IMG/VR virus record: IMGVR_UViG_3300037041_000990
Location: 1-34,755 of that record
Reading direction: 5' to 3' (one strand)
DNA length: 34,755 bases
Origin: a virus
The translations under genes were made by a program, and so were the position numbers. This document shows, one piece after another, positions 9,899 through 33,802 of the stretch; position 1 is the first letter of the stretch, and the number at the start of each line of letters is the position of its first letter. The notes beneath the pieces are model-generated. The model worked only from the letters and a program-made list of their open reading frames with translations. It was not told where the DNA came from and did not search any database.

Positions 9899-11200
9899 CT
9901 ATCCAAACTGGTATTTGCCATAGTTGGGCCGCAGTTCAAAAAACATGCGCATCATGATAGCGTCGGCGTAGTCAGGCGAAACACCGTGCATTCGGCTTAT
10001 TTCCTCCTTTGAGGTAACCGATAGCTTACCGTCAGCCTCTGGCCTGCGACGCTTAATCATATCCAGCTCCCTACTAATAGTGTCCCTATGCGTACGTGGA
10101 AGCACAAGCGCACGCTTCTCTATCAGTTCGGCCAGCTTATAGTAGCACTCGCTTTTGAGGTGCACAAATCTGTCCGGGTGTATGGCTCGCGATCCATTCA
10201 TAAACTCGCGGCATCGGAGCACATCGCACAGACCACCACCAACACCGTCCGCATCGGCTATCACCTGACCCATTTTAATAGTGTTCTTGGCTGCTATTTC
10301 ACGAATTACGCGCACGACCTCGTCTACCCTTTGCTTACGTAGCTCGTGAATCTCAACACACTGGAGTCCTCGCCATACAGCAATAACCGTCCTGTCCTTG
10401 CCAAGCCGGGCAACGTCGGCTGTGATATACATTTCTCCACCTAGCTGCTCGTCCCTAAAGCAGGCGCTAACGTCATCGTACTTAAAGAGAGCGTCATTAC
10501 TTTCGTCGTACTCCCAAACACCCTGCAGCAAGCGTTGGCGGTCAACCTCATTAAGGGCATCAAGCGTGGCAACATAGCTTTCAGGCAGGTGTGGGTTGTC
10601 ATAGGCAAGGGACTGCACAAACGCACGCTCATCCGGCATGACGGCATCCCTCCATGGCAGATAGAACTCATGGTATAGCCATCCTTTATGAGGATTACAG
10701 GTCAGCAGTATTTTTGGTGGCAAATCATACTCACGCATTTTATATCGAAGGCAGCTGGACAAAATCTCAACCGCACGACGAGACACCTGCGCTGCTTCAT
10801 CGACCCACGCATCAGTCAACTCAAGACCTTGCAGCTGCTGGAACTCCGGGTCTGAGGGATAGGCAAAGAGGTCCTTGAGCAGGATTTCGCTCCCGTTCTT
10901 AAATGTAATCACGTTCAGCTGGGCATTAAATGTAAAATGCTTCTCAGCTTGCAGGCCGTAAAGTGTGGCAACCTCAAAGAACGTCTTGAGCGTAGTCTTT
11001 TTGAGCGTGTCGAGCTTCGATCGACCTATCAGCCCACGCGTGCCCGGATACTTTAACCTGCGCTGTATTTGCCAAACGCAGCCAGTAAATGACTTTGCCC
11101 CACCACGACCTCCTCCAAAGAGCACCCACTTTGCCGGGCTGTCTACGGTTAGTGCTTTAAAGCACTCGTATTGCTTCGGCAGGAACTCTATCTTTGACAT
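9899..11200 (-). CDS. terL: Terminase large subunit
   Basis: A 433-residue packaging ATPase and nuclease of usual length. Walker A is GGGRGGAKS at residues 29-37, and Walker B is AWVDEAAQ near residues 131-138. The coupling motif region LLTCNPHKGWLYHEF follows, and the nuclease domain has ITADVARLGKDRTVIAVWRG, then IADADGVGGG and the C-terminal DYADAIMMRM with metal-binding Asp residues. It drives DNA into the prohead through the portal (32003-33802). It is encoded on the minus strand with replication genes, about 6 kb from the putative small subunit and on the opposite strand, which is unusual. Its ATG overlaps the preceding stop by one base (TAATG). Confidence 0.96.
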   Translation of the reverse strand: MSKIEFLPKQYECFKALTVDSPAKWVLFGGGRGGAKSFTGCVWQIQRRLKYPGTRGLIGRSKLDTLKKTTLKTFFEVATLYGLQAEKHFTFNAQLNVITFKNGSEILLKDLFAYPSDPEFQQLQGLELTDAWVDEAAQVSRRAVEILSSCLRYKMREYDLPPKILLTCNPHKGWLYHEFYLPWRDAVMPDERAFVQSLAYDNPHLPESYVATLDALNEVDRQRLLQGVWEYDESNDALFKYDDVSACFRDEQLGGEMYITADVARLGKDRTVIAVWRGLQCVEIHELRKQRVDEVVRVIREIAAKNTIKMGQVIADADGVGGGLCDVLRCREFMNGSRAIHPDRFVHLKSECYYKLAELIEKRALVLPRTHRDTISRELDMIKRRRPEADGKLSVTSKEEISRMHGVSPDYADAIMMRMFFELRPNYGKYQFG

Positions 11201-17076: not shown

Positions 17077-17331
17077 ATGAAAACACAGAAAGAACTCACA
17101 CAGCTCCTCAGCCAGAAGGTTGAGGAGATTAACCTAAGCCAGCAGGTTGAGCTCGCTGCTTTAACTCCAGAACAATCAAAAACTTTCATTGCAAGCATTA
17201 ACAAGATCGTAGGAGAATTGTCAAATATAGATTTTGAAGTAAACAAAGCCTCCGGGAAAGACCTAACTGAATTTGAGTCTGCTATGAAGCTGCTGGACGC
17301 TGCAATAAAAAAGATCCGATCTATTAAGTGA
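17077..17331 (+). CDS. Small paralogue B (84 aa)
   Basis: An 84-residue helical protein, tandem paralogue of the preceding gene. The shared parts are KVEEINL against KVEEIRL and SQQVELA in both. The C-terminal half is a likely helical hairpin (FIASINKIVGELSNIDFE, then LLDAAIKKIRSIK). Its stop overlaps the GTG start of the small terminase gene by 3 bases within GTGA. Confidence 0.6.
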   Translation: MKTQKELTQLLSQKVEEINLSQQVELAALTPEQSKTFIASINKIVGELSNIDFEVNKASGKDLTEFESAMKLLDAAIKKIRSIK

Positions 17332-17672
17332 GTCGGCCTACCGACATAACGACATCCAAAAAGACCATGCTTGAGAACCTCGAAAAGGCTCTCGGCGTGG
17401 TCACTGTCGCTGCGCACAACACTGGCATTCACAGGGACACCCATTACCGCTGGATGAAGGAGGACGAGGATTACAAAGTTAAGGTTAGCAGCCTCAAAGA
17501 AGTAACCATAGACTTTGCCGAGGCCCAGCTCCACAAGCTCATCAAAGAAGGCAACGTCGCCGCTACAATATTTTTCCTAAAGACCCAAGGCAAGAACAGA
17601 GGGTACATTGAACGTCAGGAAGTCACCGGGGCCGATGGCGCTCCGATTATCGAAATCATTGGGAACATATAA
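17328..17672 (+). CDS. terS: Small terminase subunit-like HTH protein
   Basis: A 114-residue protein beginning with GTG (the GTGA overlap mirrors the ATGA overlaps used elsewhere). The N-terminal helix-turn-helix (LENLEKALGVVTVAAHNTGI, then HRDTHYRWMKEDEDY) and the following FAEAQLHKLIKEGNVAATIF, then FLKTQGKNRGYIERQ, match the small terminase or terminase-associated HTH proteins of Bacteroidetes phages. The small subunit recognises the packaging site and regulates TerL. Its partner gene lies on the other strand about 6 kb away. A plain regulator is an alternative. Confidence 0.75.
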   Translation: MSRPTDITTSKKTMLENLEKALGVVTVAAHNTGIHRDTHYRWMKEDEDYKVKVSSLKEVTIDFAEAQLHKLIKEGNVAATIFFLKTQGKNRGYIERQEVTGADGAPIIEIIGNI

Positions 17673-17694: not shown

Positions 17695-18267
17695 ATGAGA
17701 GTTGAGATACCAAAGACTCTGGACGATGTCACGCTCCGGACCTATATCGCGTATATGAACGCGAAGTCGGAGGTGGAGCGCATCAGCGCGTACACTGGAA
17801 TTAAGAAGACTGTGGTCGAGCACTGGACGGTGGAAGCCGTCAACAAGACAATCGAATTGATTGATAGAAGTGTTGCCGACTGCACTCCAATTCATCTTGC
17901 AACTTTCAGGCTTGATGGGAAACTCTACGGATTCATACCGGACATGGACCTAATCACTATGCGTGAGCACGTAGACGCTGAGTCATGGGCCGGTGAGATA
18001 TGGAAGGGCACGACGGTCAACTGGAGCTTTATGCCACAGCTTATGGCGGTGCTCTTTCGTCCCATCACGGCACAACTCGGCGAGCACTACGAGATTAAGA
18101 AGTATTCGATGGAGGATGCCAAGCGCCAAGTGGAAACGATGAAGGGCATGAGTATGAGCCAAGTGCAAGGGGCACTGGTTTTTTTTTCGACTATCGCGCG
18201 AGACTGCGTGACAAGTACTCTCGAGGACCAGCTGACGGAAGCGATGATGGAGATGAAGGCGAAATAG
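17695..18267 (+). CDS. Tail assembly chaperone, short form (gpG-like)
   Basis: A 190-residue protein from the normal reading frame. Stretches such as MPQLMAVLFRPI, then HYEIKKYS and QGALVFF resemble a family of tail chaperone-like proteins in Bacteroidetes phages. The frame ends at TAG 18267. Just before its last quarter is a run of nine T's at which ribosomes can shift to the -1 frame and make the longer form. Such chaperones coat the tape measure protein before the tail tube is built. The tape measure lies about 8 kb downstream here rather than next door. Confidence 0.75.
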   Translation: MRVEIPKTLDDVTLRTYIAYMNAKSEVERISAYTGIKKTVVEHWTVEAVNKTIELIDRSVADCTPIHLATFRLDGKLYGFIPDMDLITMREHVDAESWAGEIWKGTTVNWSFMPQLMAVLFRPITAQLGEHYEIKKYSMEDAKRQVETMKGMSMSQVQGALVFFSTIARDCVTSTLEDQLTEAMMEMKAK

Positions 18268-18461
18268 ACCTGACACCCGATGGACTTGATCGGTATGGGT
18301 GGTTGCATATCTTGGAAATCCTGAGTGGCAACGATGTGACAAAGTTTGACGCGGTGCTTGACCGAAACATATACGAGATTTACACGCACCTCAGCTATAT
18401 GCGAGACTACAACGCAGAAAAGCTAAGAATGCTTAAACGAATAAAGAAAGGACATGTTTAA
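17695..18461 (+). CDS. Tail assembly chaperone, -1 frameshift form (gpGT-like, about 255 aa)
   Basis: If the ribosome slips back one base after codon 164 (TTT ending at 18186), reading continues for 91 more codons to TAA at 18459-18461. The added part has a charged acidic linker and then GLDRYGWLHILEILSGNDVT, KFDAVLDRN and YTHLSYMRDYNAEK, which matches the T part of lambda G/GT-type chaperones (a GWY/GWL, GD-x-TK-x-(D/E), L-x-Y pattern). There is no ATG near the start of this extension, its codon use is clean and it ends 8 bp inside the next gene, so a frameshift product is the best reading. Confidence 0.75.
18179..18187 (+). other. Slippery site for programmed -1 frameshift (T9)
   Basis: Nine consecutive T's read GTT TTT TTT TCG in the zero frame. 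Both decoding tRNAs can re-pair after slipping one base back, giving TTC GAC TAT. Runs of this length also allow polymerase slippage, so either mechanism may make the fusion. No strong stimulatory hairpin was obvious downstream. Confidence 0.75.
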
Positions 18462-20715
18462 CAACATCAGCTACAACGTCGTCGTCGAGCGCTTCAAAGC
18501 GTTTGCAGACGGTCACTTCCTCATCAAAAGGTTTACTCATGGGCAGGTTGACCAAACGGACCTAGACAAGGACCAGCTTTTTCCTTGGATGCACGTCGCA
18601 CCGGTCGAGGTAAGAGCGGCAACAGGTGCTCGCATCTTCACTTTTGATGTCATCTTCGCGGACATACCTCGCGACAAGGAGGACAAGACCGACTACCAGA
18701 AGGAAAGCATCAGCGATTGCATCCGTCTGGCTGAGGACCTGCTGAGTGAAATACAAAACGGACAGGTCGTGTTTAGCAGCTTGGTCGAGGTAGAGGGTGA
18801 AAGCTCAATTACTCCTTTTATTGAAGAGTGGACTCACACGCTCAGCGGCTGCACGCTGGCGCTAACTATATCCGTACCCAATGACTACAACGCATGCGAC
18901 ATACCTGCGGACTGGAGCATTGGCGGCGGTGGTAGCTCAACTCCTCCTTCGCCTTTTCCTTCGTTGATTTTGAAGGTGAACAACGAGGACAATGTTGTGC
19001 AGAACGTGCTCGACCTTGTTGATGGCGAGAACACCACTATCGAAGACCTTGGAGACGGTCGTGTCCGGATCAACTCAACAGGCGGTGGCGGAGGTGGATC
19101 AGTGGCATGGGGTGCTATCACGGGAACGCTCTCGAGTCAGACTGATCTACAGACGGCTCTAAACCTCAAGGCGAATATCACAAGCCTCGGAGCTGCAGCT
19201 TTCTCAAACGACTACAACGACCTTGACAACCTACCATCCATACCATCCATCGATGGACTGGTGCCATACACGGGAGCCTCGCAGAACGTAAACCTTGGAG
19301 AGCAAAAGCTCAAGACTGAATCAGCAACGGACTTCACAGAGATAGCTCCTTCGTATGTGACAGCGCGCAACGCTGACTCTACGAAGTACTCCAACATCGA
19401 GAGCACTGGAGTCACTGTGGTCGATAACCCAGCTGGCGACACGATGAACATGAACGCAGGCGGACTGACTTTCCCAGACGCTTCGAGTCAATACACTGCG
19501 GCCGTGAACGCGGACTGGAATGCGACGAGCGGACTGGCTGAGATCCTAAACAAGCCGACCTTCCCTCCCGTGATCGGTGACATGCTCAAAAGCGTCTACG
19601 ACACCGACAACGATGGCATCGTGGACTTCGCGGAGTCGATGAAGACAGAAGTCAGAAACTCGACCGGAGCGCCGCTATACAAGGGCCACATCGTATACCT
19701 CAGCGGCAGCACTGGCAACCTGCCGAACGCAGTCTATGCCCAGGCAAACAACGACGCAAACAGCGCCCAGACCTTCGGAGTGGTCTATGCCGACATCGCG
19801 AACAACAGCGACGGCTACGTCATCACGCTCGGACAGATCAACACGCTCGACACCCGGAGCACTGCACCGAACGCCTTCACATCGGACACCCTGGTCGATG
19901 GCGACGTGATATACCTCTCGCCAACCACACCCGGACACGTGACGCGCATCAAGCCATCCGCTCCTCAGCACATTGTTTATGTGGGCATGGTCGTGCGCAC
20001 TTCACCGACGAACGGGACGATCCAGTACCGGATCCAGAACGGCTACGAACTGGACGAGCTTCACAACGTGGTCGCCACTTCACCGGCGGACAACGACTAC
20101 ATGTACTACGACGCCTCGACGTCGCTTTATCGTTTGAGACAGTTAACAGCCGCACGCATCACGGACTCGACCACCGTCGGCCAGAGCATGATGAAGCTCA
20201 CAAACCCGAGCGCAATCAGTTATCTGCGAATAAACGCTGACAATTCAGTTTCAGCATTGTCGCTTGCTCAATTAAAAACAGAGCTTGGAGGAATACAAAT
20301 TGCTTTCAAGTCAACAGACCAGTCAAGTAACGTGCTTGCATACGCCGACATTGCTGATCTTTCATTTTCTGTTGTTGCTGGTCGCACATATAAATTTAGA
20401 ATTGTTTGCCAGTATGACGTGACCAACACTTCAACAGGTACACGTTGGGCGGTTAATGGACCAGCCTTTACTCGTTTATTGTATAACGTTCTTTGGTCAA
20501 GTGGTGCTGGATTGCAATCAAACACCGCATACAATACTTATGACGCACCCACTTCGACACTGAATACAAACTTCACAACCCAAAACTGCGCGGTTGTAGA
20601 AGGAATCGTTGTACCATCAGCAAATGGAACATTGAATGCTCGTTTTGCTTGTGAATTGACTATTACAAGTGTTACGTGTAAGGCTGGGTCTTACATTGAA
20701 TGGGAGGAAATCTAA
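18454..20715 (+). CDS. Tail fibre / receptor-binding protein with tail-terminator-like N-terminal domain
   Basis: A 753-residue multi-domain tail protein. Residues 1-150 resemble the tail-terminator or completion proteins of Bacteroidetes phages (FPWMHVAPVEVRA, TFDVIFADIPRDKED, then ITPFIEEWTHTLSGC). A Gly/Ser/Pro linker follows (GGGGSSTPPSP), then a domain with a second Gly run, the fibre repeats NDYNDLDNLPSIP and NATSGLAEILNKPTFP, and a middle domain (STGAPLYKGHIVYLSGSTG to IQNGYELDELHNV) common in phage fibres. The last 140 residues (TYKFRIVCQYDVTNTSTGTR to SYIEWEEI) are a widespread C-terminal receptor-binding module. From about 20210 the codons become clearly more AT-rich, suggesting that this tip was acquired separately. 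Confidence 0.75.
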   Translation: MFNNISYNVVVERFKAFADGHFLIKRFTHGQVDQTDLDKDQLFPWMHVAPVEVRAATGARIFTFDVIFADIPRDKEDKTDYQKESISDCIRLAEDLLSEIQNGQVVFSSLVEVEGESSITPFIEEWTHTLSGCTLALTISVPNDYNACDIPADWSIGGGGSSTPPSPFPSLILKVNNEDNVVQNVLDLVDGENTTIEDLGDGRVRINSTGGGGGGSVAWGAITGTLSSQTDLQTALNLKANITSLGAAAFSNDYNDLDNLPSIPSIDGLVPYTGASQNVNLGEQKLKTESATDFTEIAPSYVTARNADSTKYSNIESTGVTVVDNPAGDTMNMNAGGLTFPDASSQYTAAVNADWNATSGLAEILNKPTFPPVIGDMLKSVYDTDNDGIVDFAESMKTEVRNSTGAPLYKGHIVYLSGSTGNLPNAVYAQANNDANSAQTFGVVYADIANNSDGYVITLGQINTLDTRSTAPNAFTSDTLVDGDVIYLSPTTPGHVTRIKPSAPQHIVYVGMVVRTSPTNGTIQYRIQNGYELDELHNVVATSPADNDYMYYDASTSLYRLRQLTAARITDSTTVGQSMMKLTNPSAISYLRINADNSVSALSLAQLKTELGGIQIAFKSTDQSSNVLAYADIADLSFSVVAGRTYKFRIVCQYDVTNTSTGTRWAVNGPAFTRLLYNVLWSSGAGLQSNTAYNTYDAPTSTLNTNFTTQNCAVVEGIVVPSANGTLNARFACELTITSVTCKAGSYIEWEEI

Positions 20716-21356
20716 TGGCGAGGCCCGTCGAATATCAGAAGCTCTACGACCTGCTTGACGACTTCGGACGTGGAGTGGTGGAGAACGCCGTCTCGAACAT
20801 CCGAATCATTCGCAAGATAGGCGGCAAGAACAGACGACGAAACGCTTCCGGAACGCTGGCCAAGAACCTGCGCTTCGATCGAAAGCTCACTGGCCGGAGT
20901 TCTTACCTGTTCTTCTATGCAGGAGGCGAAGCTGAGAAGTACGGGGACTTCATTGAGCAGGGTGTGAACGGAACAGAGAAGAATTGGGGAAGCCCATACT
21001 CCTTCCGAGGTGGCAAGATACCCATCAGCCCAATCTTGAAGTGGATTAAGCAGAAGGGCATCAAGCCGCGCAACGTCGACGACGAGAACAGAATGAAGCG
21101 CTCGCAGTTCACATCGGCAGAGCGCGAGAGCAAGAAGACTGGCAAAGAGATAACGATGGAGAAGCTGTACCTGCGCATGGCAGCACGCATGGCAAAAAGC
21201 ATTAGCAAGAAGGGCATCGAGCCCATTTTCTATTTTAGAGACGCTATTGAAACAGAGCTGGAGAAACGAGACGACGACTTTCTTGCTGCGCTGGAGCAGG
21301 CTATAAGCATTAGAGTGGATACAGCATTCAATACAAAGAAAAAATTCAAGACCTAA
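20715..21356 (+). CDS. Head-tail / neck protein, HK97 gp10-like
   Basis: A 213-residue basic protein. The pattern YGDFIEQGVNGTEKNWGSPY, then GGKIPISPILKWIKQKGI, then the C-terminal SKKGIEPIFYFRDAI is like the HK97 gp10 or tail-completion family of Bacteroidetes phages, which join head and tail. The start is the ATG overlapping the fibre stop by one base (TAATG), with a GGGAGG sequence 7 bases upstream. An upstream in-frame ATG at 20700 is less likely. Confidence 0.65.
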   Translation: MARPVEYQKLYDLLDDFGRGVVENAVSNIRIIRKIGGKNRRRNASGTLAKNLRFDRKLTGRSSYLFFYAGGEAEKYGDFIEQGVNGTEKNWGSPYSFRGGKIPISPILKWIKQKGIKPRNVDDENRMKRSQFTSAERESKKTGKEITMEKLYLRMAARMAKSISKKGIEPIFYFRDAIETELEKRDDDFLAALEQAISIRVDTAFNTKKKFKT

Positions 21357-21359
21357 AAC

Positions 21360-22655
21360 ATGGCCATCACAATATCAGACCAGCCGAACACATGGAGCCC
21401 AAGAGGACAGCGCTTGCTTTTCTACTTGACAAGCACACAGACTGCGCAGCCGGGATTCCGGATTCGTGCTGAGGTAACCGTCAACTCTACTGGAGATATC
21501 TACGCCTTCATGCTTAGCGTAGATCCGTACGGAGGTATTATTTACGACCTGGGCAGCCTGGTGACACTTCGCAACTACGAAGATGACCCGAACCTCCATG
21601 CTTTAACTGGAGAAGCTGAGGAGCCTCAAGGCAGTGGCTACGATCGCTACCAGGTGACTTTCCAGGAGTACTGGACCGTCGGCGGTGTGCTCACTCCTCA
21701 AGGCTCGGCAACAACACCCGTGCAGATACTTGTCGTGAACGGATACTACCAGATGAGCGACGGATACAAGCCGAACGCGAACATCGGAAGCATCGACGTG
21801 AAGTATGCGCTCAGCTCAGCAGCGAACTCTCGTGCCATGAGTGACCGCTTCTCGAACACTCACAGCTGGACGAAGCTCTACTCCGCATACGTCGGCACTC
21901 CTTTTCCGGGCAGCATCTACATCCCAGTCCGCGAGGCTGACTTCGGTCAGCTCGTCGTTCCGGGCGGCAGCAGCTACCTCACTAGCAACGCCATTGACGC
22001 TTGGCGCATTAGTCTCGTCGATAGTGCTGGTGCGGCACACACGTGGACAAGTGGATCACTATCGGGCTATCCAGTGACAACTCTTGGAGTGTACCCTGCG
22101 AACCTAAACGCGGACCCAGCAGTTACGGAAAAGCCTATGGACTATCCTCAGTGGAGGTATTACGTGCTGAGCTTGCTAAATGCCGGCGGTTCTGCCGTAG
22201 CCGCTCGATACGTTTTCTACAACGCCGAGGAGTGGGGACAATGGGACTGCCGATATTCGCCAGTGCGCCTTGCTTGGGTGAATAGTCGTGGTGGCTGGGA
22301 CTACTTCAACTTTATAAAGAAAAACGAAATCACGGACGCAATCGAGCGCAAGCAATACAAGCAGACGCGCTGGAGAAGCAGCTCACCGTTTTACCTATCA
22401 AGTGATAGGGTGCTGACAGACCGGGAGACCCTTGTCACTCAGACCTTGAGTGTTACCTCAGACTGGGTTCAGGAAGAGGAGTACGTCTTCTTGCGCGGGC
22501 TGTTGGTATCAAACCAAGTGCATATCGTAAACGACGATGGTACCTTTACGCCATGCAGCATTGAGGACACGAGCTTTCTGGAACGTCGCGAGCGAAATGG
22601 TAAGCTCTATAACATTGCTCTTCAGGTTAAATACTCACAAGACTACTGGACATGA
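21360..22655 (+). CDS. Minor tail / baseplate protein
   Basis: A 431-residue beta-rich protein. The first part (residues 1-110) reads like a beta-sandwich (FRIRAEVTVNSTGDIYAFML). The middle has VRLAWVNSRGGWDYFNFIKK, a stretch I recall from distal-tail proteins of Bacteroidetes phages. It overlaps the 1,073-residue baseplate gene by 4 bp, and the two probably form the tail tip together. Specific enzymatic activity is not visible. Confidence 0.65.
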   Translation: MAITISDQPNTWSPRGQRLLFYLTSTQTAQPGFRIRAEVTVNSTGDIYAFMLSVDPYGGIIYDLGSLVTLRNYEDDPNLHALTGEAEEPQGSGYDRYQVTFQEYWTVGGVLTPQGSATTPVQILVVNGYYQMSDGYKPNANIGSIDVKYALSSAANSRAMSDRFSNTHSWTKLYSAYVGTPFPGSIYIPVREADFGQLVVPGGSSYLTSNAIDAWRISLVDSAGAAHTWTSGSLSGYPVTTLGVYPANLNADPAVTEKPMDYPQWRYYVLSLLNAGGSAVAARYVFYNAEEWGQWDCRYSPVRLAWVNSRGGWDYFNFIKKNEITDAIERKQYKQTRWRSSSPFYLSSDRVLTDRETLVTQTLSVTSDWVQEEEYVFLRGLLVSNQVHIVNDDGTFTPCSIEDTSFLERRERNGKLYNIALQVKYSQDYWT

Positions 22656-25600
22656 ACAACGACGTCGAGCTCATAGTAACCACAGGTGGAATTGAATCCA
22701 TCGCAAGCATCAGCAACAACCCGAGCTTAATGGGCATAGGTGTGCTATCTCGTTACGTTGCGACGAGCACGCCTGCAGTAGACGCGATGACCATTGGCAC
22801 GGTCGTAACTATTCGGAACGCGGCAGGCCAGAGCGTGGTGAAAACTTTGCAAGATGCGCCCATTCTTGATTCGCCCGTGCCTGGTCAGACTCGTCTCAAC
22901 TTTGCTGGCTCATGGGCACAGGACTACTCTGCCGCAGCCGGAGGTTACTTTCTTTTAGGTGCAACTGCATCTCATTCACTTGAGCTGTATCTCAACGAAA
23001 CAATATCTCAAAACTGGCGCTTCTCGGATCTTCAAACCTTTGAAGCGCTCGGATCATTCTCCAGGGAGTTTCGCATTCCTGCCACACAAAGTAACTGCGA
23101 GGCTATCGGCTATCTTACGGACGTCAACATTGATCCGGACACTAACTATTTACAAGTGAAGCTCCCGGCTGAGCTACGCGTACAAACACTACCTATTGCC
23201 TCTGGCTATATTCGGGTGATGCGCGTAATCACGCAGGCAGGAAAGCTCGCAGACTTTGAGGTGACCTTCTACGCCGAGAGTCCTGACCTGTTTAATAAGA
23301 TCAGCGGCAAGAAGCTCAAGGACATCGAGGCGCTTGCAGACCTTAATGTTGTTCTTGATTACGATGAGGTTCTCGCAGCCTCCGGTTATCCATATTTGTA
23401 CTCGCTGACAGACTATGGTCAGAAGTGGGACCAAACGGGAGCTCTTGGTTCGAGAAGTATTTACGATGAGACGGTTACTGGCTGTGTTCGTGCTGGAGAC
23501 TTGACTCCGTCGCTATGCTGGCAGTGGATATTTGAAAAGATAATTACAGAGGCAGGATTTACCTACACGGCTTCAAACCTTGAAACTGCCCTTTACAGAT
23601 ACTATGCTCCATGGATAAACTCCAAGAGTCTTCAATTTGAGGTAAGCGCTGACTCGGCCTTGTTTAGATACTACCTAAGCAGCAATCAAAGTCTGCTTTA
23701 CACCTATGTTGGGCTAACGCCAATTACCGAGCAGTTTGATAATGGTAGTAATTTGTTGTCAACGGTCTACACAGCACCTACCGATGGAGTGTACTATTTC
23801 CGAATTTGGTTTACTGGCTTCATCAATGCTTTTGGTGGAGTTCTTATCCGTGGCAACAACCTCACGACCGGTACAATCATAACTCTTTACCAGCAGGGCA
23901 ATTTCCTTAATGCCCCTACTCATTATGACAGTGCTAACTCCCTCTTTGGGATTCAGTTGTCTGCTGGTGACCAGTTTGAAATCCAGTGGAGAGCATCAGG
24001 TGGTGCTAGCAGCATTGATTTATACGCAGGATCTAGCTATGATACTGGAACTGGAGTAGAGTTGTACATGGTTGACATACGCGATGTGGCAACATTAAAT
24101 TGGTCGGCAAATTCTCCGGATGTAAGTCAGGCTGATTTTTTAAGAGACGTGCTGAACATGCATTGCTGTGTATTAATTCCCGATAGAACTATACCTAATA
24201 ATCTAGTCATTGAGCCAATTAAAAACTACATAGGCTCTGGTTCAGATAGAGACTGGAGCAAGAAGCTCGATATCTCAAAGGACATTGTGCTTAGTAATAC
24301 AAGTGATTTTCAAAATAAGCGCCTAACTTTTACCTATAGTGAGGGTGAGGACGCTGGTTCAAAAATATATTCAGAGGTCGGACGAATATATGGGGACTAT
24401 AAAATTGAGAACTACACGGTTAGTGAGGACGACGTGCCAAACGATTTTGCACGTGATAGCGAGCAGAAAGTGCAGCTTACTACGCAGTCCACACCATGTA
24501 ATTATATTAGAGGCACAAGCATCGTAATTCCTAAATTCATAAGCTCCGATGAGGGTAATTTTGTTAACCCAAAGCTGCGCTGTCTATTTTACGCCGGTGA
24601 CGTCGAAATGACTTTATGGAATAGTGCTGGCAATTTTCCCGACCCTACGTATGTAGCTCCAATACTTAACCACTACGAATTTATTCAGCCTCTGTTCTCG
24701 TCGCTCGACCTAAACTGGGCACCTGAGGTTCCGCTTTATATTCAGGGAATTAATCCAGTGAACAACCTGTTCAATGTGTACTGGCGAGACTATCTGAATC
24801 AACTTTATTCTCCGAGCGCTCGTATTATGGAGTGCTACCTTGCACTCGACCTATCAGACATTTTGAACTTTACCTTCGCGGACCGCATATGGATTGGTAC
24901 AGCGTGGTGGCGCATATTAGAGATTAGCGACTACAAGGTTGGAAGCTCCGAGGTCACAAAAGTGACACTTCTTAAACTTGTGGATGCAGTGCCAGAAACA
25001 AGTGTAGTGCCAGTTGACACGACTCCGGGTGGCGTTGTTCTTTTTGAAAATCGGTCGGGAGCATCTGCACCGGGCACACAGTCAGCCTGCGAGCGCTTCG
25101 GTTACACATGGGACCCAATTACTAATTCGTGCTATGCGTTTACATCGCAGCCCCAAAACACGCAGATTGCGATAGGTGCAAAGTCAGTTGGCATTAGCAC
25201 ACGGCAAATAAGCAATGCTGACAGCACTATTGTGATGGCCGACAAATTAAATAATGACCCACTGAACATATACACCGTAGCAGTTGGGGCTGATATTACA
25301 ATCGAAGCCAACAACCAGCAGAGCGTAGCCATCGGCGAGAGACTGACTAAACAAGGTGAGGGAGGAGTTGTGATGTATGGCAAAAACGTCCTGACAAGCA
25401 TGCCGGGTATCCACTACGGTGGAGGTTATCGCGGAGGAGACCCAGCCAGCACGTATGTCGGATGGGCACAGAGCGGCATCATTGTGCTGCAGGACGAGGC
25501 AAGTATCCTCGCCAGCGGTGATATCATGGAGCTATTTGTCGACGGAGTGCCTGGCACATATCTAACGCTCCCACCGGACGCAGTGTGGAGCTGCTTGCTC

Positions 25601-25873
25601 AACTACACAGTGCAAGACAAGACACTTGCTGGCAACTACGAGACCGGACAGCTCAGCTTCGCACTGGTCAATGTAGCCAGCACAGCCTCGGCTTCTCCCG
25701 TGGTCGTGATCAACACGAACGGCGGCTTTGGTGGCTATGTCTTCACCTTCGATGTCGACGTCGTTACTGATCCGGCACAGCCACGCGTCACGGTGCAGGT
25801 CACAGGCGGCACGTTTTCGGCGACCTTTGTCGTCACAGCCTCACTCTATTACCAACAATCACAAATCAACTGA
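22652..25873 (+). CDS. Large tail-tip / baseplate protein
   Basis: A 1,073-residue tail protein. The N-terminal region has ELYLNETISQNWRFSDLQTF, then GSFSREFRIPATQSN, and is followed by the KLADFEVTFYAESPDLF segment, typical of Bacteroidetes phage tail proteins lying between tape measure and fibres. The middle (about residues 340-470) is carbohydrate-binding-like and AT-richer. The last 200 residues, rich in Gly, Val and Thr beta stretches, use more GC-rich codons. It probably forms the baseplate hub or a receptor-contact structure. It starts in a 4-bp overlap with the gene before it. Confidence 0.7.
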   Translation: MNNDVELIVTTGGIESIASISNNPSLMGIGVLSRYVATSTPAVDAMTIGTVVTIRNAAGQSVVKTLQDAPILDSPVPGQTRLNFAGSWAQDYSAAAGGYFLLGATASHSLELYLNETISQNWRFSDLQTFEALGSFSREFRIPATQSNCEAIGYLTDVNIDPDTNYLQVKLPAELRVQTLPIASGYIRVMRVITQAGKLADFEVTFYAESPDLFNKISGKKLKDIEALADLNVVLDYDEVLAASGYPYLYSLTDYGQKWDQTGALGSRSIYDETVTGCVRAGDLTPSLCWQWIFEKIITEAGFTYTASNLETALYRYYAPWINSKSLQFEVSADSALFRYYLSSNQSLLYTYVGLTPITEQFDNGSNLLSTVYTAPTDGVYYFRIWFTGFINAFGGVLIRGNNLTTGTIITLYQQGNFLNAPTHYDSANSLFGIQLSAGDQFEIQWRASGGASSIDLYAGSSYDTGTGVELYMVDIRDVATLNWSANSPDVSQADFLRDVLNMHCCVLIPDRTIPNNLVIEPIKNYIGSGSDRDWSKKLDISKDIVLSNTSDFQNKRLTFTYSEGEDAGSKIYSEVGRIYGDYKIENYTVSEDDVPNDFARDSEQKVQLTTQSTPCNYIRGTSIVIPKFISSDEGNFVNPKLRCLFYAGDVEMTLWNSAGNFPDPTYVAPILNHYEFIQPLFSSLDLNWAPEVPLYIQGINPVNNLFNVYWRDYLNQLYSPSARIMECYLALDLSDILNFTFADRIWIGTAWWRILEISDYKVGSSEVTKVTLLKLVDAVPETSVVPVDTTPGGVVLFENRSGASAPGTQSACERFGYTWDPITNSCYAFTSQPQNTQIAIGAKSVGISTRQISNADSTIVMADKLNNDPLNIYTVAVGADITIEANNQQSVAIGERLTKQGEGGVVMYGKNVLTSMPGIHYGGGYRGGDPASTYVGWAQSGIIVLQDEASILASGDIMELFVDGVPGTYLTLPPDAVWSCLLNYTVQDKTLAGNYETGQLSFALVNVASTASASPVVVINTNGGFGGYVFTFDVDVVTDPAQPRVTVQVTGGTFSATFVVTASLYYQQSQIN

Positions 25874-26050: not shown

Positions 26051-28555
26051 ATGGCAAAGAAATATGTAATCGAACTTGAAACCAAAGCAGACGGGACTAT
26101 CGGCACGCTAAACGACGTTGCCAAGGGGCTGGAGGCTGTAGCAAGTGCCGAAAAGAAAGTAGCTTCCAATACAGAAGATGTTACGGAGCAGCTTGCCAAG
26201 TTGCGCGAGCAGCTACAGAACACCGATGTCAAAAGTGACCAGTACAAAGAGCTCAGTGAGCAGTATAAGAAACTTGGTGGCACTTTAGAAGACCTCGTTC
26301 CAAAGACCGCCAATCTGAAGCAAGAGCAACGTGATCTCAAAAAAGCGTTACTGGCTGGACAGGAAGCGCTCGGCTTGGAGAAGTACACGCAGCTTACTCA
26401 GCGCCTCGGTGAGGTCAATGATCAGCTCAAAGACATCGCAGAAAGCGCAGGACAGAATGCAGGACCACCGCTTGAGAACCTGAGCAACATTGCTGGTGGT
26501 TTGCAGTATCGTTTAGAGAGTCTTGACTTTGACGGATTGAATCAGGACATCCGAAACGTCGCAGGGAACATTAAGAACTTCTCCTTAAAGGGAATCATAG
26601 ATGGAGTCAAGGGTCTGGGTGGAGCTTTCTCGGCATTAGGCAAAGCTCTGCTTGCAAATCCTATCTTTGCTATTGCCGCAGCTATTGTTGCGGTAGGTTT
26701 GGCGATTTCGTCATTTTTATCAAGTCAGCAAGAGGCCATCGAGAAGCAGAACGCTGCGATTGACAAAAATACAGAACGCCGCAAAGACAACGAGCGCTTG
26801 GCTTTTGCCCAAGCAGAAGGCAACAATAGAAAGTTGACTGAGCTCAGACTTGAGTCCAATAAAAAGGACATGCAAGGCACTCAGAAAAAAATTGACAACA
26901 TTCTTGGATATCAAAGACGCTACGGCTATCTGACTAAGGAGCAGGAGCAGGAGCTCGCTGATTTGCGTGATAAGTTTAGAACGCAGGAGGTTGACCGGGA
27001 AATTATAAAAATCGAAAGGATCAATCAGTTGAACCAATCTCGCTTTGACTTAGAGCGTAAATTTAATCAGCTCGGGCTTACTGATAGACAAAAAGCCCAG
27101 CAGAACATTGAGTTTGCGCGTATCGAAGAGAAGAAGCGACTTGCACAGCTCGGTGCCAGTGCTGAAGATGTTAAAAAGAGTGACGAGATTTTTCGCGAAC
27201 AGCGTAGAAAGCTTGACGAAGACTACACTAAGGAGGACGCTGCAAATGCAAAGTCACGAGCAGATACGGCTAAGCAAGAGGCTGACGAAAAGATTGCATT
27301 GCAAACAGAAGCATTGGAGGCTATCAAGTCAGCACAGGATGAATTTAACCTTTCCGGAAAAACTGAACAAGACAAGGAGCTGGCAGCAGTTGCAGAAAAG
27401 TACAAGGCTCTTAAAGAACAAGCAGAAAAAGCAAAGGTCGACACGAAACAGATTGTCGAGCTGCAAGGTAAAGAGGAGCTTGCCATTCGCCAGAAATATG
27501 CCCAGATGCTGATCGAAATAACTAAGCAGGCACAGGAGGAGCAGCAAGCGGTTATTGACGGACTGGTGGAGGAGAATCTCACCGCTCAAAAAAGCGCACA
27601 GCAACAGGAACTGGATGCGCTGGGAGAGGTCTACTTTGAAAAGATAACACAGCTCGAAGATGCAGAACAGGATGCCAGCGCACTCCGAGCCGAATGGGAA
27701 GCGAAGCGTAAAGCCATCACCGACAAGTACGCACAAGAGGACGTCGAGAAAGAGAAGGAAAGACAGCAGGCCGTTCTTGCTGCGCAGACCGCCGGGCTTA
27801 CCACAAGGCAACAAGCTCTCGCCAATGAACTCGCGGCTATTAAAGCGGATTATGAGCTTCGCATTGCATTGGCCAGAAAGTATGGTGAAGACACCGCAGC
27901 ACTTGAAGAAGAGTTTGCCAACAAGCAGAAGGAGGCTCGCATCAAAGCATCACTTGAGACGGTTCAGATGTGGGCGGACACTGCTTCGCAAGCACTGGAC
28001 GCACTTACCTCATTAAACGAAGCCAAGAGCGCTGAGCTTGGAGAGAAACTCAGTACGATTGACAAACAGATTGAAGAAGCGAGAACAGCACAGCAGCGAG
28101 CGGACCTAATTAAGCGTCGAAATATTGTCGAAGCAGAACAGAGGAAAGCGTTTGAGAAAAACAAAAAAATGCAAATCGCGTCGGCCACTGTTAACACAAT
28201 CGCATCTGCAATTGCTGCCTTTGGTTCGCAACTAATAGTAGGTGACCCTACCAGTCTGGTTCGAGGCGGAATCGCTGCTGCTGCTGCTGCTGCGTCAGGG
28301 GCACTTCAAATAGCAAAAATCAAAAACACGCAGTTCGAAAGCAGCACACCGCCCACGAGCTCAAATATACCTGACGCTGGTGGTGGAGGTGATGGTGGTG
28401 GCGCTGAGCCAACCACGCCAGCCTTTAATCCGCTAGTGCTTGACTTCTTGAACAATCGCCCGGATCAACAAACGCCTCGCGCCTACGTGCTTTCTGGCGA
28501 TGTGGAGAAGGCTGCAAATGCACGGGAACGCGTTGAGGAGCTGGCCCGACTTTAA
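26051..28555 (+). CDS. Tape measure protein
   Basis: An 834-residue protein that sets tail length. Almost the whole sequence is coiled-coil, rich in Gln, Glu, Lys and Ala, with an N-terminal helical region (DVKSDQYKELSEQYKKLGG) and a hydrophobic segment at about residues 200-223 (LGKALLANPIFAIAAAIVAV) of the kind thought to cross the host membrane. A second hydrophobic stretch (TVNTIASAIAAFGSQLIVG, then GIAAAAAAASGAL) precedes a Gly/Pro-rich C-terminus. By the usual rule of about 0.15 nm per residue it predicts a tail of about 125 nm. There is no peptidase motif. Confidence 0.9.
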   Translation: MAKKYVIELETKADGTIGTLNDVAKGLEAVASAEKKVASNTEDVTEQLAKLREQLQNTDVKSDQYKELSEQYKKLGGTLEDLVPKTANLKQEQRDLKKALLAGQEALGLEKYTQLTQRLGEVNDQLKDIAESAGQNAGPPLENLSNIAGGLQYRLESLDFDGLNQDIRNVAGNIKNFSLKGIIDGVKGLGGAFSALGKALLANPIFAIAAAIVAVGLAISSFLSSQQEAIEKQNAAIDKNTERRKDNERLAFAQAEGNNRKLTELRLESNKKDMQGTQKKIDNILGYQRRYGYLTKEQEQELADLRDKFRTQEVDREIIKIERINQLNQSRFDLERKFNQLGLTDRQKAQQNIEFARIEEKKRLAQLGASAEDVKKSDEIFREQRRKLDEDYTKEDAANAKSRADTAKQEADEKIALQTEALEAIKSAQDEFNLSGKTEQDKELAAVAEKYKALKEQAEKAKVDTKQIVELQGKEELAIRQKYAQMLIEITKQAQEEQQAVIDGLVEENLTAQKSAQQQELDALGEVYFEKITQLEDAEQDASALRAEWEAKRKAITDKYAQEDVEKEKERQQAVLAAQTAGLTTRQQALANELAAIKADYELRIALARKYGEDTAALEEEFANKQKEARIKASLETVQMWADTASQALDALTSLNEAKSAELGEKLSTIDKQIEEARTAQQRADLIKRRNIVEAEQRKAFEKNKKMQIASATVNTIASAIAAFGSQLIVGDPTSLVRGGIAAAAAAASGALQIAKIKNTQFESSTPPTSSNIPDAGGGGDGGGAEPTTPAFNPLVLDFLNNRPDQQTPRAYVLSGDVEKAANARERVEELARL

Positions 28556-28587: not shown

Positions 28588-28660
28588 CCCACTCACACCT
28601 TTGCTGCTATCTGCTAAGGATTAACCGACACCAAAATATATACAAGAAAAATTGCCAAAC

Positions 28661-29236
28661 ATGGAAAAGAAAAAAGTTATGAAATGCGTCGTTGACGATA
28701 ACATGAAGCTCGGCGTTCAGGCTATAAGCCTTGTCGAGTTTCCGGCCATCGAGACCAACTGGGTCGCATTGAACGAAGTTAAGCTAAGCGCACTCAGCGA
28801 GGAGCGCCGAATGCTGTACGGGCCTGCGCTAATACCGGAGAAGTACATTCTGCGCATAGACAAAAAAACTGGTGAAGAGTATTACATCTATTTTGAAAAG
28901 GAAACCGTCTATAAATGTGCTCACCAGTTCATGATGCAAAACCTACATCATAACCACACCCTAGAGCACGAGCAATCGGTTAAAGGGTGTACAGTTGTAG
29001 AGACTTGGTACAAGGAAAGCGAACAAGACAAGAGCGTGCACCTTGGCATCGATGTGCCGGTCGGAACATGGATGGTGGGAAGCTACGTACAAAATGATGA
29101 GCTATGGGAAGAAGTTAAGCTCGGCAAGGTAAAGGGTTTTAGCATTGAAGGAATCTTTGACCACATGGTTGCTGAACTAAGCAGTACGCACGAGGACCTT
29201 TTTGTTGAGGCATTACTTGCTGCTTTGAGCTCATAA
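28661..29236 (+). CDS. Prohead maturation protease, XkdF-like
   Basis: A 191-residue protein of the XkdF-like family of capsid maturation proteases. Typical segments are GPALIPEKYILRID, then EYYIYFEKETVYKCAHQF, HHNHTLEHEQSVKGC with the conserved His residues, VVETWYKESEQDKSVHLG, VPVGTWMVGSYVQNDELW and KVKGFSIEGIF with a Ser. It would cut the scaffold and capsid proteins during head maturation. I use the ATG at 28661 and not a TTG nine bases upstream. It is followed by a terminator-like hairpin and then scaffold and capsid genes. Confidence 0.88.
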   Translation: MEKKKVMKCVVDDNMKLGVQAISLVEFPAIETNWVALNEVKLSALSEERRMLYGPALIPEKYILRIDKKTGEEYYIYFEKETVYKCAHQFMMQNLHHNHTLEHEQSVKGCTVVETWYKESEQDKSVHLGIDVPVGTWMVGSYVQNDELWEEVKLGKVKGFSIEGIFDHMVAELSSTHEDLFVEALLAALSS

Positions 29237-29239
29237 AAA

Positions 29240-29268
29240 AAAAGGGACGCACTATGGCGTACCCTTTT
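29240..29268 (+). terminator. Terminator-like hairpin after the protease gene
   Basis: AAAAGGG-ACGC pairs with GCGT-A-CCCTTTT (one bulged A) around a 6-nt loop, directly after the protease stop, with a run of A's before it and four T's at the end. It has good stem strength but a short T-run. It lies upstream of the scaffold and capsid genes, so those may be expressed from their own start. Confidence 0.65.
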
Positions 29269-29298
29269 CAAACATTACACACACCACACACACTGTGG

Positions 29299-29328
29299 TT
29301 GAACGAAGCAAAAGTCGTCACAAAATTG
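29299..29328 (+). promoter_or_regulatory. Weak candidate promoter for scaffold and capsid genes
   Basis: TTG at 29299-29301 and CAAAATTG at 29321-29328 (6 of 8 bases of TAnnTTTG) are 19 bases apart, the favoured spacing. It lies between a terminator and the scaffold ATG at 29383 in a stretch I consider non-coding. The match is imperfect. Confidence 0.3.
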
Positions 29329-29382
29329 ATACAAAGCGGTGAAAGTTTTCGACATCGAGTCAATTTAGAAAATAGTAATAAA

Positions 29383-30003
29383 ATGAAAGGACAGATAGCT
29401 CAAAAAGTGCGCGATATCTTTCAGAGTTTTAAAATCGACCCTAAGGACATTTTTCTTGAGGAAGAAGTTAATCTGGAGATTGAGGCTAAGCTGGCAGACG
29501 GCACAAGCATTTTCACCAGCGCTGCTGAATGGGGTGCGACCGCAGACGTTTACATGAAGGATGAAAGCGGCGTTAGCACACCACTACAGGCCGGTGACTA
29601 CCAACTAGAAGACGGCCGCATGATGGTTGTTGGTGAAGATTCCAAAGTAGTTGAAATCAAGGAAATGGAAGTAGAGGAAGAAATAGAAGATGAAATGTCA
29701 AGCGAAGACTTGATTAAAACTATTGAAAGTTTGGGTGCGCGAATTGCTGCGCTCGAAGGTGAAAACGCCGAGCTTTTAAGCCAGATAAGCAATGCTCAAG
29801 TAGAAAACATCAGCAAAGGAGCTGAGCTATCTTCTGTAAAGCAAGAATTGCAAAGCATTAAAAAATTACCAGCAGTAGAAAGCGTTAAAGCAAAGCGCAC
29901 TGAGGTATCTCTTGCTCGTAATCAAAAAGAAATAAAGGAAAAAACGTACTCTGCCATGACCGTGCAGGAGCGCGTGAATCAATATCTATCAAAAATTAAA
30001 TAA
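29383..30003 (+). CDS. Capsid scaffold protein
   Basis: A 206-residue acidic protein. The first 85 residues (KGQIAQKVRDIFQSFKIDPK to ADVYMKDESGV) form a small beta-rich domain, followed by a strongly acidic stretch (KEMEVEEEIEDEMSSED) and a coiled coil (IKTIESLGARIAALEGENAE), then a basic C-terminus (QERVNQYLSKIK). This is the layout of phage scaffolds cleaved by the maturation protease. An upstream in-frame ATG at 29254 lies inside the terminator hairpin loop and would add 43 residues of poor coding character, so I use 29383. It lies directly before the major capsid gene. Confidence 0.75.
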   Translation: MKGQIAQKVRDIFQSFKIDPKDIFLEEEVNLEIEAKLADGTSIFTSAAEWGATADVYMKDESGVSTPLQAGDYQLEDGRMMVVGEDSKVVEIKEMEVEEEIEDEMSSEDLIKTIESLGARIAALEGENAELLSQISNAQVENISKGAELSSVKQELQSIKKLPAVESVKAKRTEVSLARNQKEIKEKTYSAMTVQERVNQYLSKIK

Positions 30004-31608: not shown

Positions 31609-31998
31609 ATGATTTACCTACAAGCCAACACACTAAATCAGTCCTTATACTTGTCACTCGACGAGGCACGTCAATACTTCTCGACTTCATTCACGCACTA
31701 CTTGTTCATACTTCGACACGAGGAGAACAGCGCGGCTGGAGTATATTTGGCTCAGGTGCTTCAAGTAGTTAGTGAGTCTCAGCGCGTTACGCAGGTGCTT
31801 GTTGACACAACGGGACTCACACAGATCGGACGCTATCGCTATGCGGTATACGGCCAAAACTCAAGCACCAATGTAAATCCTGCCAACGCTTCTGTAGTGG
31901 GAGAGTGTGAGCAGGGACTATGCACCTTAACCGATGGCACGCAGTATTTTGATGTGCCTCAAATAAATATAGACGACGATGTCATCTACAACGGGTAA
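31609..31998 (+). CDS. Hypothetical head/tail accessory protein (129 aa)
   Basis: A 129-residue protein beginning MIYLQANTLNQSLYLSLDEA. From memory this beta-rich pattern (a strand rich in SLYLSL, then YLFILRHEE, then GRYRYAVYGQNS) recurs in small virion-region proteins of Bacteroidetes phages between the tail tube and portal genes. An in-frame ATG at 31543 lies upstream of the terminator hairpin and would read through it, so I use 31609. The precise role is unknown. Confidence 0.65.
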   Translation: MIYLQANTLNQSLYLSLDEARQYFSTSFTHYLFILRHEENSAAGVYLAQVLQVVSESQRVTQVLVDTTGLTQIGRYRYAVYGQNSSTNVNPANASVVGECEQGLCTLTDGTQYFDVPQINIDDDVIYNG

Positions 31999-32002
31999 TT
32001 TT

Positions 32003-33802
32003 ATGAAGCTGGACCTTAGCCAGTACACACCGGTTAGCGCTGCCGAAAAACTGGACCGTGCTGGCTGGGTGACTTTTGGTGTGGACAACCTGTTCCCAGT
32101 ATACATTACTGAACTTGCACAAAGTTCTCCAATTCATGGTGCGTTGTGTATTTCGATTAGTGATATGGTAGCCGGAAAAGGATTGAAGGCCGGTCAGTAT
32201 CAGGACAGAATCGATGCTCTTGATGTTTATACCGCATTTCAAGGGTGTGCGCGTGACTTGAAGCTATACGGTGGCTTTTACTTGGAGGTTATCTACACTG
32301 TAGACCGCAAGGGGCTGGCAAAAATAAATCACATTCCATTTGAGGAGTGTAGAATTGCAGTAACAGGTGAGGACGAGGAGCAATTTGGCGTTTACCATAG
32401 TCCAGATTGGTCGAACACTCGCAAGAAAAAAAACAAGCCTGTTTTTATTCCTGAGTTTAACGTTAACACCGCCATAGATGAGCCTCGTCAGGTGTACTGG
32501 TGCTTTGATTATACCGGTTCTCAAACCTATCCGAAGCCAGACTACTGGAGTGCGGTCAACTATATTGAGCTCAGTCGCCAAATAGGTATTTTTCACGTGT
32601 CAAACATTCTAAATGGAATGTTTCCGTCAACCATTATTTCATTTTTTAATGGTGAGCAGGACGCTGACTCTATTCGCAAACTGCGCAATGAGTATAACAC
32701 GTATCTTGGCACAGCACACAACAGCGGCAAGACTTTATTTTTGTTCAACGAACCCGGTGCCCAGCCTCCAAAAATTGAGGCATACCCACTTAGCGATGCT
32801 GATAAGCAGTATGAGTACCTAACCAACACCTCTCGCACGGAGGTTATGCTGGCACACCGTGTAACAACGCCGCTTTTGTTTGGTATCCGTGGTGAGGGAG
32901 GAGGATTTGGTAGCAACAAGGATGAAATGGTTGTAGGGCTGGAGATATTCACAAAGCAGGTCATTGAACCAAAGCAAAGAAAGTTATCGGACGCGTTCGA
33001 GGAGATACTTAATTTTGAAATGCAAGGCATTGAGATTGCCGTTGTGCCCAACACGCCAATTATGACGGATAATGGCGCTACTGCAACCGATGTTCAAGCT
33101 CCAAGCCCACAACAGGCACCAGCCGCTCCGGTTCCTGTAGCCCAATCGCTCGAAAAAAAAAAGTTAGTACAGTCTGAGGAGGTAGATATGACTGCCGACG
33201 ACGAGCAGTACTGGCGTGATCGACTTAAGGACCGCGGCGAAGTGATCGACCTGGACGAGTGGGAGCTGGTGCACGAAGGTGAAGCGCTACGTGATGCCGA
33301 CATCGAGCGTCAGTTCTGCGAGAATCTTCAGGAGTACCAGCTCCAGAGTCTCGAAGGCTACGCGGAACCAGAGAAAAAAAGCGCTTGGGGAGATCGCGGC
33401 CTGTACAAGCTCCGCTATGCATACAGCCAGAACCTCACACGCGGCGAGAACGGCGAGACAAAGAGCCGGGAGTTCTGCGTCGACATGGTCGGACTATCGA
33501 AGGGAGGCACAGTGTACCGCTACGAAGACATCCAGCTCATGAGTGAGGCTGGAATCAATGGCCAATTTGCACCAACAGGCAAAACTCAGTACGATTTGTT
33601 TAAGTATGTCGGCGGCTGCTTTTGTCATCATCACTGGAAGCGCCAGATATACTTTAGAAAACGTCAGAACAGCAAGTTTCTCCCTAACAAGGGTCTTGAC
33701 AATGATGTGCGCGTGGGAAATGTACCATATGTAAAGCAAAAAGGCATCGAAGGCATAGCGCCTAACGACAGACCGGGTAGAGGATCACTTAAATACGGAT
33801 AA
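32003..33802 (+). CDS. Portal protein
   Basis: A 599-residue portal protein, which forms the ring at one vertex through which DNA enters. The first 350 residues have a portal-like layout (TFGVDNLFPVYITELAQSSP, FQGCARDLKLYGGFYLEVIY, then LAHRVTTPLLFGIRGEGGGF). The last 240 residues form an extra domain with a Pro/Gln-rich linker, YWRDRLKDRGEVIDLDEWEL, then REFCVDMVGLSKGGTVYRYE, and a basic end (FRKRQNSKFLPNKGLDNDVR). This extension is known in Bacteroidetes phage portals. An upstream ATG at 31979 would overlap the previous gene by 20 bp; I favour 32003. The gene follows the tail tube genes rather than terminase. Confidence 0.85.
   Translation: MKLDLSQYTPVSAAEKLDRAGWVTFGVDNLFPVYITELAQSSPIHGALCISISDMVAGKGLKAGQYQDRIDALDVYTAFQGCARDLKLYGGFYLEVIYTVDRKGLAKINHIPFEECRIAVTGEDEEQFGVYHSPDWSNTRKKKNKPVFIPEFNVNTAIDEPRQVYWCFDYTGSQTYPKPDYWSAVNYIELSRQIGIFHVSNILNGMFPSTIISFFNGEQDADSIRKLRNEYNTYLGTAHNSGKTLFLFNEPGAQPPKIEAYPLSDADKQYEYLTNTSRTEVMLAHRVTTPLLFGIRGEGGGFGSNKDEMVVGLEIFTKQVIEPKQRKLSDAFEEILNFEMQGIEIAVVPNTPIMTDNGATATDVQAPSPQQAPAAPVPVAQSLEKKKLVQSEEVDMTADDEQYWRDRLKDRGEVIDLDEWELVHEGEALRDADIERQFCENLQEYQLQSLEGYAEPEKKSAWGDRGLYKLRYAYSQNLTRGENGETKSREFCVDMVGLSKGGTVYRYEDIQLMSEAGINGQFAPTGKTQYDLFKYVGGCFCHHHWKRQIYFRKRQNSKFLPNKGLDNDVRVGNVPYVKQKGIEGIAPNDRPGRGSLKYG

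Follow-up and report, generated by a model that had tools for sequence, protein, structure and literature searches.

In tail assembly chaperones of the lambda type, G binds the tape measure protein, T binds the tail tube and neither is found in virions, and the gene usually lies between those for the major tail protein and the tape measure. At stem-assisted slippage sites, a stem ends just before the run. When a tailed phage encodes a frame-shifted pair, this is classically the chaperone (PMC5009743). Programmed transcriptional slippage sites have been described in Thermus dnaX (A9), in IS elements (9A/9T) and in Shigella type III genes (PMC1088944, PMC5009743). The RNA polymerase of E. coli slips at about 5% on T7 and about 10% on T8 (PMC6260861), and many bacteria are said to avoid A/T runs of nine within their genes (PMC1088944).

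Here, we analyzed a window of 34,755 nt, covering positions 1 to 34,755 of the IMG/VR virus record IMGVR_UViG_3300037041_000990. We consider it rather probable that a gene of its tail module yields G and a minority of GT via a T9 run, chiefly by RNA polymerase slippage, and that both products act like lambda gpG/gpGT. Most of the product would be G, read in frame 0. At the T9 run, a minority of products would gain one nucleotide (U10 in the mRNA, by RNA polymerase slippage), or the ribosome would step back by one; 91 further codons would then be read in the −1 frame to give GT, which would have its first 164 residues in common with G. Both routes would yield the identical GT protein, and both may act. 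Among the open-licence papers searched, none described slippage at a T9 run in phage genes of this kind. The features of the locus are as follows.

17328..17672, + strand: small terminase subunit-like gene, directly 5′ of G (phrog_309, 6.4e-07)
17695..18267, + strand: G, the frame-0 product, 190 aa (phrog_32199, a PHROG of unknown function)
18179..18187, + strand: candidate T9 slippage run, frame-0 register GTT TTT TTT TCG, invariant among relatives
18186..18461, + strand: T extension in the −1 frame, 91 codons plus TAA (18459-18461); codons 1-164 of G plus the extension give GT, 255 aa
18188..18267, + strand: frame-0 tail of G overlapping the T extension, dual-coded
18454..20715, + strand: gene of 753 aa after G/GT, whose N-terminal part of about 150 aa is a separate gene (phrog_30964) in many relatives
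20700..21356, + strand: gene of 218 aa, conserved module (phrog_29822)
21360..22655, + strand: gene of 431 aa, conserved module
22652..25873, + strand: gene of 1073 aa, conserved module
26051..28555, + strand: probable tape measure protein, 834 aa, with a weak match in the window (phrog_339, E 0.93)

These frame coordinates confirm the preliminary description, which had proposed a shift at the nine T's from a product of 190 to one of about 255 residues. It had also described the extension as having no nearby start, and this holds as well: the −1 frame of the window is free of stops from 18099 onward, and its earliest ATG, GTG or TTG lies at 18303 or later, within the conserved part. From base composition, 0.09 runs of at least nine T's are expected on this strand of the window, compared with two observed. 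A single T9 is thus not very rare by composition; what goes beyond chance is its conservation.

Relatives were collected in several scans. Scanning first with G yielded 20 loci, and a search with one distant G yielded 63; further scans were run with L015, with the T part of L025 (41 loci) and with a Galbibacter G (26 loci), and a genome scan added records of Winogradskyella, Pricia, Flavobacterium and Galbibacter. Those relatives that carry a name are Flavobacteriaceae phages or prophages. Search patterns that contained the FF residues were back-translated degenerately, permitting TTC (distant G, genome and L025 scans). An additional T-alignment scan used a pattern corresponding to one motif inside the T part and hence did not select for the run; it returned at least 402 relatives, and all of the 80 that were kept have at least nine T's in the same register. 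Profiles for both parts recovered 239 G ORFs and 230 T ORFs; the nine G ORFs lacking a T either run off their contig (eight) or represent a short second fragment in L127. In each of the 230 G-T pairs the T extension lies in the −1 frame, and in none of them did it appear as a gene of its own with its own start, an arrangement that had been named beforehand as refuting the frameshift. The run is T9 in 200 pairs and T10 in 30, with the same frame-0 and −1 registers in both, and is never shorter. Exact de-duplication reduced the 230 to 192 sequences, and greedy clustering gave 54, 35 and 22 clusters at 90, 70 and 50% identity. In the 35 representatives at 70% identity, all nine T positions are invariant and the flanks are variable: the preceding base is G in 19, C in 12, A in two and T in two, and the base following the nine T's is A in 19, G in nine, C in six and T in one. 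Throughout the 192 sequences, the frame-0 residue after FF is Y, S, W, F or C, with codons that always begin with T.

Substitution phase was determined from 800 pairs of relatives, which share sequences and are therefore not independent. Position 3 of frame 0 takes 67% of the substitutions in the G region, while the share at the third position of the −1 frame is 45% for the overlap and 59% for the T-only part. From this switch of the third-position peak from frame 0 to −1 across the run it follows, as far as substitution patterns can tell, that the extension is translated. Changes per site are lowest in the overlap (0.098, versus 0.158 and 0.129 in the G and T-only regions). Past the run, the frame-0 tail of the 35 representatives has 16-84 codons (median 59) and the −1 frame has 74-92 codons, with a median of two for the +1 frame. 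Across clades, F, R, G, W, D and L positions of the T part are invariant or nearly so. Together, the 230 uniform pairs and the phase switch at the run strongly support the two-product gene that had been proposed.

Homopolymers are mutable and error-prone, and the T9 run might hence be a sequencing or assembly error or a phase-variable contingency tract. We reject both, as hardly credible, because all 230 pairs are out of frame in one direction, none being fused in the DNA, across many assemblies that include named isolates, and because both frames are constrained in the overlap. A far more serious alternative, although on balance we doubt it, is that the ribosome alone is responsible, shifting by −1 at U_UU.U_UU.U as it does in lambda-type G/GT genes, and that the encoded amino acids fix the additional T's. 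This in-frame X_XX.Z_ZZ.N heptamer is present in all relatives. In E. coli, U_UU.U_UU.U is listed among the heptamers that exceed 0.10% without stimulators (PMC4066793), and tail chaperone frameshifts of 6-7% have been measured elsewhere (PMC3711429). Moreover, hydrophobic residues of one frame or the other partly dictate the outer T's, at positions 1 and 9, a point against the slippage explanation. However, a heptamer of the type U_UU.U_UU.N uses just positions 2-7 of the run, and T7 or T8 occurs in none of the 230 pairs. The −1 shift codon is Leu in 28 of the 35 representatives, so that a C at position 8, where the second TTT ends, would be silent, leaving Phe in frame 0 and Leu in the −1 frame unchanged. 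Yet position 8 is T in all 28 of these representatives, although U_UU.U_UU.C is reported to rank with U_UU.U_UU.U among the efficient ribosomal heptamers of E. coli (PMC4066793), and although elsewhere in G 565 of 1524 Phe codons, pooled over sequences, are TTC, and 157 of 257 Leu codons in the −1 frame are CTN. Nor was a conserved downstream stimulating structure found in three windows of the 35 representatives (mean z −0.29, 0.06 and 0.02). The constant T at position 8, the invariant run and the lack of RNA structure point to selection on run length, which on these sequence grounds favors RNA polymerase slippage over a purely ribosomal heptamer, in keeping with the suggestion of the preliminary description that transcriptional slippage could contribute. 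A hairpin upstream of the run was considered and rejected as a family feature: in the window, a stem AGTGC/GCACT ends two bases before the T9, and across the 35 representatives upstream folding was no better than in shuffled sequences (mean z 0.16, one of 35 below −2).

Whichever machine slips, the two products might also have a role other than that of a tail chaperone, and that of a neck or connector protein ending in either of two C-termini would be an unlikely but conceivable one. The gene follows the terminase, precedes phrog_30964 and phrog_29822 and is separated from the tape measure by four genes, unlike the usual lambda-type chaperone gene; furthermore, its long frame-0 tail shows some constraint, unlike a plain early stop. 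Against a neck or connector role stand the classical identity of frame-shifted pairs cited above, the ORF list, in which inspection found no other such pair near the tape measure, and one fold neighbor named as a tail assembly chaperone. We regard the tail chaperone role of G/GT as likely, based on architecture and gene position and not on homology. G and GT would coat the tape measure protein and recruit tail tube subunits in a fixed ratio, like lambda gpG/gpGT. The G/GT chaperone label given at the outset stands as plausible, but neither a chaperone family nor a solved structure matched, and the tape measure is not adjacent. Searches against Pfam and NCBIfam matched no chaperone family, and when the T part of one relative was compared with annotated phages by tblastn, no match was obtained. 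The predicted G fold is confident (pLDDT 84.3, pTM 0.76); against solved structures, Foldseek gave no match below E 1 and VIA a best Z of 2.6, an absence that was not counted as evidence. A viral model library gave 39 matches at E 0.001 or lower, all of them lacking a functional name; the model at rank 41, itself a prediction, is the one named tail assembly chaperone protein, with weak similarity (E 6.9e-3, prob 0.98, TM 0.40). The T model is helical and of low confidence (pLDDT 60).

G/GT opens the tail module. In relatives, the order of genes is terminase, G/GT, phrog_30964-like, phrog_29822-like, two large genes, tape measure, protease and capsid; it could be followed up to the capsid in L090 and L092. 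Proteins at the place of the probable tape measure match tape measure PHROGs in L092 (2.3e-07) and L090 (6.7e-05). The large terminase gene of the window (PF04466, 9899-11200, minus) is on the opposite strand, 6 kb from the small terminase, and lies directly before G in several relatives. Genes for a protease (28652-29236) and a scaffold-like protein (29254-30003) are separate in the window, and both match parts of PHROG 24921; an A9 run at 29235-29243 begins within the protease stop codon. Elsewhere, a TET-associated glycosyltransferase gene (PF20691, 14515-15246) adjoins a TET/JBP oxygenase gene (PF12851, 15243-16037), which suggests hypermodified phage DNA.

A candidate for a second slippage site was found in the portal gene:

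33153..33162, + strand: A10 run that would lead to a truncated portal, inside the portal gene (31979-33802)

The run lies in the linker that joins the portal core to a C-terminal domain of about 210 residues; by eye this domain resembles MuF, but it gave no match to Pfam. The same linker has 9-11 A's in 49 of 52 related loci, the contigs of the remaining three ending short of it. Lys elsewhere in these portal genes is AAG in 1047 and AAA in 860 cases. Among the seven distant records with a portal match, the linker contains A10 in two (L293, L297); it is absent from L294, L295, L296, L298 and L299, and also from P12024S. Off-frame readings past the A run stop early (median of six codons for the longer of the two), although a random place in the same genes equals or beats this in 18% on average, which makes the stops alone weak evidence. 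Near the 3′ end of L292, the portal ORF has an A9 in place of the A10 of close relatives, closing the frame, either as a variant or as a homopolymer error. Since a heptamer A_AA.A_AA.G is in frame within the A10, a ribosomal shift may act here in place of RNA polymerase. The model for our reading of the site is Thermus dnaX, where slippage produces two subunits from one gene. The conserved A10 suggests the same slippage trick used twice. We may thus speculate, tentatively and with slightly more doubt than confidence, that polymerase slippage sets virion ratios in this phage lineage, the T9 adding a C-terminal domain to some G and the A10 removing one from some portal proteins.

If polymerase slippage sets the G:GT ratio, the phage would fix this ratio already at transcription, and the T9 family, with hundreds of homologs, would offer a clean natural test; with the portal A10, a second structural ratio would come under the same idea. 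In addition, PHROGs 32199 and 38404, both of unknown function, receive a proposed function, and annotations that split the G/GT gene are corrected. Such a split is found in the Nonlabens phages P12024S and P12024L, whose pair (P12024S_38, _39) belongs to the same gene family, with a tblastn match to G at 24% identity and a T9 in the same register. P12024S_38 and _39 are annotated as two separate hypothetical proteins, unlike our two-product reading, yet in P12024S an open and conserved −1 frame reaches back as far as the T9. Flavobacterium phage 6H (L173), a fold neighbor, was rejected as sharing the site: the gene picked for its length, 191 aa, lacks a T9, and its −1 frame runs into a stop after the FF codons. 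This probable G fold neighbor (10352-10927, minus strand) is followed by a T-like ORF in a different frame.

Compared with lambda G/GT, the locus has in common two products with one N-terminus, a −1 C-terminal extension and a place in the tail module (PMC5009743), the shift itself being predicted here. It differs in its homopolymer of at least nine T's, where lambda has a mixed heptamer, in lying apart from the tape measure, in having no detectable family match, and in the length of the dual-coded overlap, whose median of 59 codons contrasts with an average distance from site to stop of 26 nt given for SEA-PHAGES data (PMC10885494). From programmed transcriptional slippage sites, it is set apart as a gene of a phage structural module whose run doubles as a ribosomal heptamer. 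It resembles them in that nine identical A or T residues are kept across homologs and would give access to a second frame.
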